Shown: one piece after another, positions 4,526 to 32,312 of the stretch
Position numbering within the stretch: the stretch's first letter is position 1
Layout of the letters: every line of letters begins with the position of its first letter
NCBI RefSeq assembly: GCF_000337195.1
Contig: NZ_AOID01000066.1
Coordinates: forward strand, 1-33,257
Length of the DNA stretch: 33,257 nt
Source of the DNA: Natrinema versiforme JCM 10478
GTDB lineage: Archaea > Halobacteriota > Halobacteria > Halobacteriales > Natrialbaceae
Reading direction: 5' to 3'
Notes under the pieces: model-generated
What the model was told of the DNA's origin: nothing
Database searches by the model: none
The model's input: only the letters and a program-made list of their open reading frames with translations
Position numbers and translations under genes: made by a program

Positions 4526-5578
4526 ATGGAGCGTCCATCGTCACAAACGATGACTCCGAGTGACTGTTCGCAGGTGTCCTTCGACGACTCAGACACCAGA
4601 CGTGAAGAGATGCAGAGCACGATGGAAGCATGGGTCGAAGATCTCGTTGACGAGGTCGATGATGCCGTCTCGAGCGACGAATTTCAGCGGTGGCTCGAGG
4701 TGCAGAGCCGCTTTCACGACTATTCACATCGAAATACGCTGCTGATCAATCGCCAGTATCCAAATGCGACCCGCGTCGCCGGCTATCGGACATGGCAAAA
4801 CGAATTCGATCGTCATGTGAAAGAAGGCGAAAGTGCAATCTGGATCTGGGCGCCGATCATCGCGAAGCAGTGCCCCGAGTGTGAGAACTCACCGTCGTAC
4901 CATGATCGAAGTGACTGCGAATACGACGAGACGCCGCCTGAGGAGTGGTCGAAAGGGCTCGTCGGCTTTCGACCAGCACCAGTCTTCGATATTTCCCAAA
5001 CTGAGGGGGAACCACCCCCCGAACTCGAGACCGAAGCGACTGGAACCGCCGATGAGCTACTGCCAGCGCTGCTCGAGGCAGCCTCGTCGCTCACTGTGGA
5101 CGTGGAGATCGTCTCCCGAGAGAATTGGCCTCATGGCGATGCCAAGGGCGTCTGTCAGTATCGGTCGCCTGCAGACCGACCACTCGTCAAAGCACGTGAC
5201 CGTGAGAACAGCGCCGATCTCGCTGTGACGCTCGTCCACGAGTACGCTCACGCGCTGTTACACAGTGGCGTCGACGACGAGACTGAACGGTCAGAACGTG
5301 AACTCGAGGCGGAGGCAGTCGGCTACATCGTTGGACGGTACTTCGGGCTGGATACGAGCGGCTCGGCGTTCTATCTCGCTGCGTGGCAGGGCGAAGAGCC
5401 GGAAGTGATCTTCGACCGACTCGAGCGGATCAGTTCGACAGCCGCAGAGATCATCGATGTCGTCGACGAGGTGATGATAGATGAGTGGGCAGGAACTCCT
5501 CTTCAAAATCGTCGACACGCTCGAGACGGCGGGACTCAGTCGCGACGAGTACCAACTCCACCGGGTAATCGATGTTGA
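4526..5578 (+). CDS. ArdC-like / HExxH metalloprotease, rearranged C-terminus
   Basis: The body matches haloarchaeal plasmid proteins joining an ArdC-type ssDNA-binding N-terminal domain (FQRWLEVQSRFHDYSHRNTL, then YPNATRVAGYRTWQNEFDRH) with a zinc-peptidase domain. HEYAH at residues 238-242 and the downstream ELEAEAVGYIVGRYFGLDTS give the HExxH...E metal site. A CPEC pair near residue 116 may bind zinc. ArdC proteins protect incoming DNA from restriction during conjugation. I start at ATG 4526; ATG 4487 and 4550 are alternatives. After about residue 318 (DVVDEVMIDE) the frame runs into the HalOD1 gene out of frame, so the last 30 or so residues (PLQNRRHARDGGTQ) are not native. Its natural C-terminus was probably replaced when the HalOD1 copy arrived. 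Confidence 0.75.
   Translation: MERPSSQTMTPSDCSQVSFDDSDTRREEMQSTMEAWVEDLVDEVDDAVSSDEFQRWLEVQSRFHDYSHRNTLLINRQYPNATRVAGYRTWQNEFDRHVKEGESAIWIWAPIIAKQCPECENSPSYHDRSDCEYDETPPEEWSKGLVGFRPAPVFDISQTEGEPPPELETEATGTADELLPALLEAASSLTVDVEIVSRENWPHGDAKGVCQYRSPADRPLVKARDRENSADLAVTLVHEYAHALLHSGVDDETERSERELEAEAVGYIVGRYFGLDTSGSAFYLAAWQGEEPEVIFDRLERISSTAAEIIDVVDEVMIDEWAGTPLQNRRHARDGGTQSRRVPTPPGNRC
5464..5473 (+). promoter_or_regulatory. ribosome binding site of second HalOD1 gene
   Basis: GAGGTGAT at 5468-5475 precedes ATG 5481 by 5 nt and matches the haloarchaeal anti-Shine-Dalgarno. It lies inside the ArdC-like frame and supports a separate start for the HalOD1 gene. Confidence 0.55.
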
Positions 5579-5693
5579 AGCACTCGAGCAACTCGCGGAC
5601 TCATCGAACGATGAGCTCGAGATTAGATTCTCGGTCGGAGAGTTTCGTGTCCTCGTCACGCAGTCCGATGTACGGGTCCTCACGGATCCGTAG
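5481..5693 (+). CDS. free-standing HalOD1 domain protein, 70 aa
   Basis: The protein begins MSGQELLFKIVDTLETAGLS and continues RDEYQLHRVIDVEALEQLAD, with FSVGEFRVLVTQSDVRVLTD at the end. It is essentially a single HalOD1 domain, the C-terminal output module usually attached to haloarchaeal receiver or sensor proteins. It overlaps the out-of-frame end of the ArdC-like gene by 98 bases and has its own Shine-Dalgarno. It is a paralogue of the copy at 2897, sharing the core pattern GL-RDEYQL-VDVEALEQ. Both copies sit on a broken neighbouring gene. No receiver or histidine kinase lies nearby, so its signalling partner is unknown. Confidence 0.75.
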   Translation: MSGQELLFKIVDTLETAGLSRDEYQLHRVIDVEALEQLADSSNDELEIRFSVGEFRVLVTQSDVRVLTDP

Positions 5694-5760: not shown

Positions 5761-5768
5761 TATAAATA
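5761..5768 (+). promoter_or_regulatory. TATA box for candidate structured RNA
   Basis: TATAAATA at 5761-5768 stands 23-27 nt before the start of the strong outer stem at 5791, the spacing expected between an archaeal TATA box and its transcription start. The bases around it are A/T-rich in an otherwise GC-rich area. No start codon with a long frame follows closely, which favours a non-coding transcript. Confidence 0.55.
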
Positions 5769-5787
5769 TCTGCCAACTCACAATCAG

Positions 5788-5882
5788 TATGGAAGCCGCG
5801 CTCCACCTCGTCGCGGGGGCATGCGTTGAAATGCCCCGGGTGATGGCACACCCGAGACGTGGCTTCCAACCCGCGTGGGTTT
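5788..5882 (+). ncRNA. candidate structured RNA, multibranched
   Basis: A 10-bp outer stem pairs 5791-5800 with 5858-5867 (GGAAGCC/GGCTTCC plus three more pairs, one of them G-U). It encloses two further hairpins: GGGGCAT 5816-5822 with ATGCCCC 5831-5837, and GGGTG 5838-5842 with CACCC 5849-5853. A third hairpin follows directly: AACCC 5868-5872 with GGGTT 5877-5881. A 15-base single-stranded strand at 5801-5815 contains CACCTCGTC. Such nested complementarity downstream of a TATA box is what one expects of a stable small RNA. It might be a stand-alone regulatory RNA, a 5' leader element of the zinc-finger gene 100 nt downstream, or an orphan TnpB-associated guide-scaffold RNA. I do not recognise a known family. 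Confidence 0.5.
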
Positions 5883-5981
5883 GCAGGCCAAGTTTCGCTT
5901 ACTTCTAACGGGATATAAACGTCCCGCACGAGAGTCGTATCGCACTCGAGTAGCCGTCAATCCAGACAGTCGCCGCTCAAG

Positions 5982-6140
5982 ATGGCTATGAGCGAGAAGC
6001 GGCGGTCGGGAGAGGAGGAGGACTGGTCGCTGCCGCCGTGTCCGCACTGTGGGAAAGCAGTGATTCTGGTACACACGCGCGGTCCGATGGAGCATATTGC
6101 GGCACCGTGTGGTTGTCACGTCGCGTCGCCTGACCTCTGA
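5982..6140 (+). CDS. small zinc-finger protein, 52 aa
   Basis: From ATG 5982 the protein reads MAMSEKRRSGEEEDWSLPPC and continues PHCGKAVILVHTRGPMEHIA, ending APCGCHVASPDL at TGA 6138-6140. CPHCG at residues 20-24 and CGCH near residue 44 give a four-ligand zinc site. Haloarchaea encode many such 40-70 residue zinc-finger microproteins; a few are implicated in swarming or biofilm regulation, most are uncharacterised. A second ATG lies two codons downstream. A hairpin at 6208-6220 follows the gene and probably ends transcription. Confidence 0.7.
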   Translation: MAMSEKRRSGEEEDWSLPPCPHCGKAVILVHTRGPMEHIAAPCGCHVASPDL

Positions 6141-30449: not shown

Positions 30450-30979
30450 CCCGCCCCACCGTGGGCGGGGGTGAAACGCGTCACTCTGGCGCGTGTTCTA
30501 TCTCCTCGATATACCGTTCAACCACTTCCTCCGACACCGCATCTGTCGTCCCCCCGTAGTATCCGATTTTCCAAAACCCACCTCTCCAGAAATACGACTC
30601 CCGAATCTCAGGATACCGCTTCAGTAAGTGCTTCCCAGAGTACGACTTGAACTGCCGAGCGATGTCCGCTGGACTGTGCTTCGGGTCGCACTGCACAAAC
30701 ACGTGTATGTGGTCGTCCACGATCTCCAAGGCGATGACGTGGTGCAAGATCACGCCGACCGGAATGCATCGGTGAATATCGTGTGACGCGAGACGACGAA
30801 ACTCGACGGCAACACGACGAATTACCGGACTCACAAAACCCAGCCGCAGGTACGGGTGGTCCGTCTGTCCGGGTCGGGGCGCGTAAGCCGCCCACCCTCA
30901 TCCCGCTCGCTCGCCGAGCAGGGAGTGCTACCACACGGCTGAGGAAACTACAAAAGCCTCGGGCCACCGTGCCCGAGGC
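30450..30979 (-). mobile_element. IS200-type element with TnpA and end hairpins
   Basis: The element is bounded by two hairpins with the identical 6-nt loop CACCGT: CCCGCCC/GGGCGGG at 30450-30469 and GCCTCGGGC/GCCCGAGGC at 30956-30979. These fit the subterminal hairpins that a Y1 transposase (TnpA) binds at the two ends of IS200/IS605 elements. The transposase gene lies between them on the minus strand and there is no TnpB. Exact cleavage sites cannot be fixed from the sequence alone. Confidence 0.65.
30481..30834 (-). pseudogene. tnpA: TnpA Y1 transposase (IS200/IS605), degraded N-terminus
   Basis: The C-terminal 75 residues are typical: DDHIHVFVQCDPKHSPADIA holds the HUH motif (HIH), FKSYSGKHLLKRYPEIRESY follows, and SEEVVERYIEEIEHAPE holds the catalytic tyrosine in ERYIE. 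TnpA is a single-strand DNA transposase that makes a 5'-phosphotyrosine link at the hairpin ends. The first 40 residues (VIRRVAVEFRRLASHDIHRC) do not show the expected opening with YHxVWCPKYR, so the 5' part is mutated or missing. GTG 30834 is the longest available start. The full protein would be about 130-140 residues, so activity is unlikely unless the start lies in a lost frame. Confidence 0.75.
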
Positions 30980-31067
30980 TGTTTACAGCACTCCTATTCG
31001 GTAGCCAAATATTCATTCAATCCAGCCAATTTATAGTCCAGTCGTCCTATTGATTGGTTGTCTTATA

Positions 31068-32312
31068 ATGATATCAACTACGTCCGCAATTCTTGCGGTG
31101 ATTTGGGCTATCTTCTTACTATATTCCGCCTCAATCGTGTTTTGGTTGCTTGAGGTAGTCATTCTCTCATGGAACCAACTCGTATCCGATGATGAGTTAA
31201 TGTACGATCACAAAGACGTTCAAGTGCGTATTTTGACGATCGAGGCAGAGGCGGTTGTCCAAGGAACAGTCAACTCTATTCCGGAGGAAGTCAGCGATAT
31301 TCGCGTCATCGCCGAACGAGACATCCAAATTGACGGAGCAACAGTTCATGTCGTTCCAGATGGGTTCGTCTGTGAAGCACGTCATAAGGGCCGCGCACTC
31401 GAATGGGCACGCCGAAACGTCCCCTGCTCTCGAGAGTTCATTCTATATCTGGACGAAGACACCATCGTTCAGCAGTTCAAGGGTTTACCGGATGCGGATG
31501 TCGTTCAGATAACCGAGATGCCGATATTCACCGGGTCGTGGATTGCGTATCTCTCGGAGACGTTCCGAATCGGGTACCAGTATGAACAGCGAGCATTCGG
31601 TCGGTTCAAGTATCCACTCTACGCATGGGGTGGCGGGATTGCTATTCGCAAGTCGGTAGAAGACCAGATCACGTGGAACGCAGAAACGATCACCGAGGAC
31701 ACAAATTTCATCTGGCGTGCTGCGGAAGCTGGCAGCCTCGATTTCCGCGTTCTCAATTTGAAATTCCGAAATCAAGCTCCGCCGACGTTGCGAGGGATGT
31801 TCCGCCAGCGGCGCCGCTGGTTCGCTGGGACCCAACACTCATCAGACCTACTCCCACGCCGGTATCGGCTCTTTCTCTCTTTTCGGATGGTAGCTTGGGC
31901 GTTGTCTCCGATCATTCCCGTTTTGTCTCTTCTACTGTTTCTCTTCCCACAGTACGTCCCGCAGACATCCATATATCAAGTAGCCTCTGCCCTCGGATTT
32001 ATGATGTTGTTCATCATCACCTGTGTCGGCGTCGTCGTTTACGCTCGCCACGAACGAGTCACACTACTTGCAGTACCATTGACACCGCTTCTAGTCGTAC
32101 TGAACACTGCTGGCGCATTATGGGGATACGTCTCGCCGGTACAGACGTTTACCGTAACAGAGAAGGTCGCACCCGGAACAGAGAAAGTCTCGGCTGAGAC
32201 ACTCGAACAAACCAATCCATGGCTCGAGGAAGGTGATCTCGAGAACCACGACGGGAAGGAGATACTCATTCCTGACGGAGGTATTGACGATGTCATGTTC
32301 GGCGATGAGTAA
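31068..32312 (+). CDS. family 2 glycosyltransferase, membrane-bound
   Basis: The 414-residue protein starts at ATG 31068. A first membrane helix (SAILAVIWAIFLLYSASIVF) precedes a GT-A catalytic domain: VQVRILTIEAEAVVQGTVNS, the metal-binding LDEDT at about 130-134, the catalytic-base region AETITEDTNFIWRA, and the QxxRW-type motif MFRQRRRWFAG near 252-262. Three or four C-terminal helices follow (WALSPIIPVLSLLLFLF, ALGFMMLFIITCVGVVVY, LLAVPLTPLLVVLNTAGALW). This is the layout of processive beta-glycosyltransferases (cellulose/hyaluronan synthase-like), so an exported polysaccharide or glycolipid is likely. A TATA-like TTTATA lies at 31030-31035. The stop overlaps the next gene's ATG. Confidence 0.85.
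   Translation: MISTTSAILAVIWAIFLLYSASIVFWLLEVVILSWNQLVSDDELMYDHKDVQVRILTIEAEAVVQGTVNSIPEEVSDIRVIAERDIQIDGATVHVVPDGFVCEARHKGRALEWARRNVPCSREFILYLDEDTIVQQFKGLPDADVVQITEMPIFTGSWIAYLSETFRIGYQYEQRAFGRFKYPLYAWGGGIAIRKSVEDQITWNAETITEDTNFIWRAAEAGSLDFRVLNLKFRNQAPPTLRGMFRQRRRWFAGTQHSSDLLPRRYRLFLSFRMVAWALSPIIPVLSLLLFLFPQYVPQTSIYQVASALGFMMLFIITCVGVVVYARHERVTLLAVPLTPLLVVLNTAGALWGYVSPVQTFTVTEKVAPGTEKVSAETLEQTNPWLEEGDLENHDGKEILIPDGGIDDVMFGDE

Follow-up and report, generated by a model that had tools for sequence, protein, structure and literature searches.

The window analyzed here, a 33,257-nt stretch of Natrinema versiforme JCM 10478 DNA (contig NZ_AOID01000066.1), contains at positions 5761 to 5882 a segment that is dense in complementary strands, carries its own TATA box and lies upstream of a small zinc-finger gene. 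A sequence-only reading of the window had offered three answers: an undescribed haloarchaeal small RNA, a leader element of the zinc-finger gene, or an orphan scaffold for a TnpB guide RNA. To decide among these, we considered the fold of the segment, its relatives in other genomes, and the genes that follow them.

Structure of the element

The sequence-only reading had correctly placed the TATA box, the closing stem of 10 bp and the two hairpins inside it; a further hairpin, P4, follows. The parts of the element and its downstream frames are as follows.

5761..5768, + strand: TATA box TATAAATA, putative own promoter of the element, about 30 nt upstream of P1
5791..5800, + strand: P1 5' strand GGAAGCCGCG, partner 5858-5867; 10 of 10 pairs with double compensatory changes in alignment A3
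5816..5837, + strand: P2 hairpin inside P1, stem GGGGCAT/ATGCCCC (5816-5822/5831-5837)
5838..5853, + strand: P3 hairpin inside P1, stem GGGTG/CACCC (5838-5842/5849-5853), 6-nt loop
5858..5867, + strand: P1 3' strand CGTGGCTTCC, candidate switching strand common to P1 and the pre-start helix
5868..5881, + strand: P4 hairpin AACCC...GGGTT (5868-5872/5877-5881), directly 3' of P1
5885..5889, + strand: pre-start strand AGGCC, predicted alternative helix with GGCTT at 5861-5865 (one G-U), from a permutation test, pair counts and energies
5890..5991, + strand: leader-peptide frame of 33 codons, ..FRLLLTGYKRPARESYRTR.., AAG at the start position, stop TGA at 5989-5991
5909..5926, + strand: P5 hairpin CGGGA-TATAAACG-TCCCG (5909-5913/5922-5926) in the leader-peptide frame, with pair changes among copies
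5988..6140, + strand: Cys4 zinc-finger ORF (CPHCG...PCGC), whose ATG overlaps the leader-peptide stop as ATGA

In the window P1 consists of 10 bp, one of them a G-U. Folded as a single sequence, positions 5780-5890 reach -50 kcal/mol, compared with -42.6 +/- 3.5 kcal/mol for shuffled sequences (z = -2.1), and 3 of 200 shuffles were as stable as the window fold. This is mildly unusual and suggestive, but it is no proof. The earlier claim that the complementarity exceeds chance is therefore only mildly borne out by the single-sequence fold, and its real support comes from covariation across the family and from the five copies in the same genome.

Covariation among relatives

Compensatory base changes in the outer stem had been proposed as the evidence that would support a structured RNA, and they are present at all ten P1 pairs in alignment A3, which holds 46 diverse copies, as well as at three of the five P3 pairs. 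Across P1 and P3 together, 108 cells carry double changes as opposed to 23.4 +/- 4.6 after shuffling, and the covariation score is 0.484 as opposed to 0.156 for shuffled alignments and 0.05-0.12 for slid controls; these counts lean toward P1-P3, since the model used to align A3 includes those helices but not the pre-start helix. Despite this bias, the number of pair types and the slid controls leave little doubt that the predicted P1/P3 structure is real. All cells in P3 are paired (100%), and 94% are paired in P2, where one pair is changed on both sides (alignment A1). P4 differs in length among copies, is paired in 64% of cells and enters the alternative fold described below; it is weakly supported because the local alignment is poor there.

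G-U is common among the P1 pair types in A3, which suits an RNA helix and is unsuited to a DNA duplex. This matters for the proposal that the repeats are a DNA-level element, such as a transposon end, a MITE or a recombination site, with no RNA involved. Several copies per genome, dispersed and in tandem, would be natural for such an element, but neither the G-U pairs nor a promoter and start codon held at fixed positions would be, and we regard this explanation as very unlikely.

Distribution in the haloarchaea

The genome of N. versiforme carries five copies, as found by BLAST and also by covariance model R1, which was built from an alignment of 34 copies that begins at the TATA box and reaches into the downstream frame. 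Of 125 genomes from its family, the Natrialbaceae, 73 have BLAST matches, many with at least six copies, six per genome being the number scored in this survey. R1 matched 127 of 391 Halobacteria genomes, with 15-19 copies in each of three genomes of one genus. A second model, R2, built from 46 diverse copies, matched 233 of the 391 sampled genomes and 75 of 86 genera; copy numbers under R2 are lower bounds because only about ten candidates were scored per genome. Named carriers include Natrinema, Natrarchaeobius, Haladaptatus, Halarchaeum, Halorubrum, Halovivax, Halosimplex and Natrialba. Among 295 genomes sampled across the phylum, no match was seen outside the order, and all 23 positives fell within it. 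The SWIM gene on plasmid 5 of Halalkalicoccus jeotgali (L193) has an apparently divergent leader, with GTCGG/CCGAC before the ATG, that R2 misses, so the leader class is probably wider than counted.

Copies also occur in tandem, with four within 6 kb at L201, pairs 494 nt apart at L202 and L203, and a pair about 1.1 kb apart at L204. The element is found on some IMG/VR contigs, clearly on L123, L152 and L188 and weakly on L139. A phage origin was considered, and no match was found among 50,697 phage records, either by DNA or with a SWIM protein.

No Rfam 15 family was found at the element in the window, even at E values up to 5, nor did any family reach its gathering threshold in the relatives; the best sub-threshold matches on a relative (mir-7927 and nadA) were far below their gathering scores. 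The element would therefore be a previously uncatalogued RNA structure and, judging from its relatives, a member of a haloarchaeal class. To this extent the suggestion of an undescribed haloarchaeal RNA was right, insofar as no Rfam family matches.

The same searches bear on the orphan TnpB guide RNA (sot or omega RNA) that had been proposed. No sot family matched at the element or in its relatives, no TnpB was seen beside the copies read, and the ORFs that follow the copies are mostly Cys-rich. The only point in favor of such a guide is that a sot2652 RNA exists in another part of the window, at 30821-31000, and we give the idea almost no credence. That sot2652 RNA (RF02657, 154.8 bits, + strand) lies beside an IS200-type Y1 transposase ORF (30481-30834, - strand), and on its other side is a glycosyltransferase ORF at 31050-32312, with no TnpB.

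Position between promoter and start codon

Measured from the 5' base of P1, TATAA occupies position -30 in nearly all of 40 related copies from the Natrialbaceae, where a conserved C precedes it at -37; more distant copies have an AT-rich box between about -32 and -28. At the other end, nearly all copies finish in CC-ATG or AC-ATG, and in nearly all of them this ATG opens an ORF. The element thus has a promoter on one side and, on the other, the start codon of an ORF that runs in its own direction, as a cis-regulatory mRNA leader has.

What the ATG opens differs among families. In the Natrialbaceae the first ORF is a leader peptide, usually of 28-60 aa, with a conserved ..(G/R)(Y/H)KR(P/L)AR.. 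motif; the next ORF, which usually overlaps its stop and often does so as ATGA, encodes a small Cys4 protein with the consensus P-x-CPxCGxPVxxVTxxGPxxHxAxPCGCRV. Outside this family, the protein that begins at the ATG is mostly a SWIM, HNH or small C-rich protein. On a Haladaptatus plasmid, an annotated SWIM CDS starts exactly at the ATG of the element (L191 8001). An ORF with a zinc motif lies downstream at 88 of 113 loci, compared with 43 of 271 background ORFs and 31 of 916 60-aa windows; the count is crude, the loci are not independent, and several of the "negatives" do encode C-x-x-C...H...C proteins. Some copies have no recognizable zinc-finger ORF downstream, and some SWIM genes have no such leader.

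These positions bear directly on the remaining proposals. A discrete small RNA made from its own TATA box and acting in trans, with the downstream gene merely adjacent, would account for a promoter at fixed spacing and for the few copies that have no clear zinc-finger ORF. It would not account for an ATG that nearly all copies share in position and that opens ORFs of unrelated proteins, for pre-start bases that covary with P1, or for a hairpin, P5, that falls within the ORF; we think this alternative quite improbable. The element is best read as a 5' leader, rather than as a free small RNA or a TnpB RNA, which lends good support to the earlier proposal of a leader for the zinc-finger gene in that the predicted RNA ends at the start codon of an ORF that either overlaps or is the Cys-rich gene. 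The same reading had seen no coding frame here; this part needs some correction, since the start codon of the family lies just past the 3' end it gave the structure, and P5 lies inside the frame.

The window copy departs from its relatives at this point. It has AAG at 5890-5892 where nearly all have ATG, together with an in-frame TTG at 5881-5883, and the copy may therefore be decaying, altered, or able to start differently. It scores well (87.5 bits with R2), and its zinc-finger ORF is intact whether counted from 5988 or from a second in-frame ATG at 5982.

By sequence, the zinc-finger protein has no significant relative among solved structures. Its AlphaFold model is modest (pLDDT 77), and a Foldseek search with this model returned mostly ribosomal zinc ribbons, every one with an E value of 0.75 or worse. 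With regard to a defense role, no PADLOC family was found for the zinc finger of the window. A HalOD1 ORF occupies 5484-5690 of the window, shortly before the element, and at L036 the ORF after the leader fuses the same CPxCG..PCGC finger with a part that matches HalOD1 weakly. At L096 a 59-aa leader ORF overlaps a RAMP/Csm3-like gene (PADLOC Csm3, E 1.4e-5), an unexpected partner. Relatives of one SWIM protein occur at up to 22 places per plasmid on Haladaptatus plasmids, for example NZ_CP085339.1. The plasmid records L190, L195, L196 and L200 list no CDS over the leader and zinc-finger ORFs.

A hairpin within the leader-peptide frame

In the Natrialbaceae, P5 reads either CGGGA-TATAAACG-TCCCG or CGAGA-..-TCTCG, and its variable pair is G-C in 24 copies and A-U in another 24. 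Double-change cells number 25, as opposed to 7.3 after shuffling. Because the change of this pair replaces two amino acids simultaneously (G by R and P by L), a constraint at the level of nucleic acid is favored. On a tree, P5 needs about six or seven changes, with poor branch support and few supported independent events. We consider P5 supported as a probable hairpin in the Natrialbaceae. As a universal part of the element it was rejected, being clear in some distant copies but not significant overall (z = 1.8 against codon shuffles). A second TATA-like string at 5914-5919 had been a candidate promoter for the zinc-finger gene; it need not be one, because it is the P5 loop and codes for part of the conserved peptide ..GYKRPAR...

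Two predicted exclusive folds at the start codon

In members of the family, the bases directly 5' of the ATG are complementary to the P1 3' strand, with examples such as GGCTT/AAGCC-ATG, GGTTGTC/GACAACC-ATG and GGTCTTC/GAAGACC-ATG. Among 33 distant loci the mean Watson-Crick run between the two strands is 5.36, compared with 3.72 +/- 0.20 when strands are swapped among loci, and the maximum of 2000 such shuffles was 4.33. For all 55 loci the permutation test gave 5.04 compared with 3.72. The near group alone gave 4.61 compared with 4.45 +/- 0.07 (maximum 4.65), which is not clearly significant because the near sequences are too alike. Column counts for the pre-start helix show 18 double-change cells as opposed to 8.3. 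Since the pre-start bases pair and covary with the P1 3' strand, the two predicted folds would exclude each other. Constrained folding of 24 members placed them within about 4 kcal/mol of each other in 14; the pre-start fold had the lower energy in 9 members and the P1 fold in 15, and the gap exceeded 6 kcal/mol in several, such as L075, L080 and L090.

The explanation we favor, and hold to be probably correct, is that the element is the leader of a short mRNA and belongs to an uncatalogued class of cis-regulatory RNA with two exclusive folds at the start codon. Transcription would begin about 30 nt past the TATA box, at P1 or slightly upstream of it, and the leader would then fold either as P1 around P2 and P3 or with the P1 3' strand paired to the pre-start bases. 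In the latter fold the start codon would abut a stable hairpin, and because the helix abuts the AUG it should hinder ribosome loading and initiation; P1 would free the start codon and would be the putative "on" state. In the Natrialbaceae, translation of the two ORFs should be coupled, because the leader-peptide stop usually overlaps the zinc-finger start, whereas in other families the first ORF would usually be the Cys-rich protein itself. From these pairings we infer that the element is a translational switch that may turn zinc-finger genes on and off. The structure and its covariation, the promoter spacing, the position of the ATG, the ORF overlaps and the gene association are shown by the sequences; the transcript 5' end, the switching and its direction are the parts of the model that we infer, as is the trigger, which could be the ribosome or a protein, perhaps the zinc finger encoded downstream.

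Possible triggers

Outside the start region, almost no unpaired position reaches 80% identity in distant copies, and the highly conserved unpaired pocket in which a ligand would sit is thus lacking. With so few conserved unpaired bases, a protein or the ribosome is favored over a metabolite as trigger. A strict riboswitch that binds zinc or a metabolite would fit the bistable fold at the start codon, and zinc-binding proteins in unrelated families suggest a shared signal; but the scarcity of conserved unpaired positions is unlike a typical aptamer, and P3 loop sequences differ widely. We regard it as unlikely.

Because the encoded proteins have zinc binding in common, control may be autogenous or linked to zinc. 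In a special case of our favored explanation, the zinc-finger protein would bind its own leader and shift it between folds. A Cys-rich, probably zinc-binding protein follows most leaders, its ORF usually overlaps the leader peptide, and conservation is mostly of pairing with few unpaired bases kept, as in ribosomal-protein leaders. Against this, unrelated zinc-binding families (CPxCG..PCGC, SWIM, HNH-containing and others) would all have to bind one class of RNA, and no RNA-binding relative was found with significance by sequence or fold. Such autogenous control is conceivable, though we doubt it.

Comparison with known systems

We found no description of the element in the open-access literature, and an earlier account elsewhere is possible. 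In Haloferax volcanii about two transcripts in three are leaderless, and a synthetic haloarchaeal riboswitch has been described (PMC8241225). The same source names the fluoride switch of Thermococcus as the sole native archaeal riboswitch with experimental proof as of 2021. Against this background we offer, tentatively and at somewhat less than even confidence, a broader proposal: a widespread, native, haloarchaea-specific translational switch in which a P1 strand exchanges with the bases before the AUG, and in which a common trigger would govern a dispersed zinc-finger regulon of unrelated families. The leader class occurs in more than half of the sampled haloarchaeal genomes, with two predicted folds meeting at the start codon. 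Such a class would allow a direct test of how initiation is controlled in archaea that do not depend on Shine-Dalgarno sites. It also brings together, under a single regulatory element, many micro-proteins that lack annotation, and provides a genome-wide marker for finding them.

With sot RNAs and TnpB omega RNAs (RF02657) the element shares only that it is a structured haloarchaeal RNA; it has no sequence or structure match to them and no TnpB. The resemblance to translational riboswitches is closer. Like the archaeal fluoride riboswitch of Thermococcus (cited in PMC8241225), the element is a structured 5' leader; its structure is conserved and backed by covariation, and two apparently exclusive folds, one engaging the translation start, would differ in start-site access as judged from sequence and computed energy. 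Unlike these riboswitches, it has no known ligand and few conserved unpaired bases, has been seen only in Halobacteria, and pairs through a strand immediately 5' of the AUG, not at a Shine-Dalgarno site. Ribosomal-protein leaders, including the S15 leader in Halobacteria (PMC7247131), are likewise cis-acting with covarying structure, and zinc-binding proteins can be their targets; the genes behind this element, in contrast, are small zinc-finger or other Cys-rich, non-ribosomal genes, and its copies are many and dispersed. The encoded proteins resemble the C(P)XCG zinc-finger micro-proteins of haloarchaea (PMC11241148, PMC10716476) in being mostly under about 70 aa and having paired cysteines. 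No leader of this kind was found described for those micro-proteins in the open-access literature. In the proteins encoded here the first pair is CPxC(G); they differ in that the second is PCGC (C-x-C), and in that a conserved, structured leader and a leader peptide that overlaps the gene precede it.
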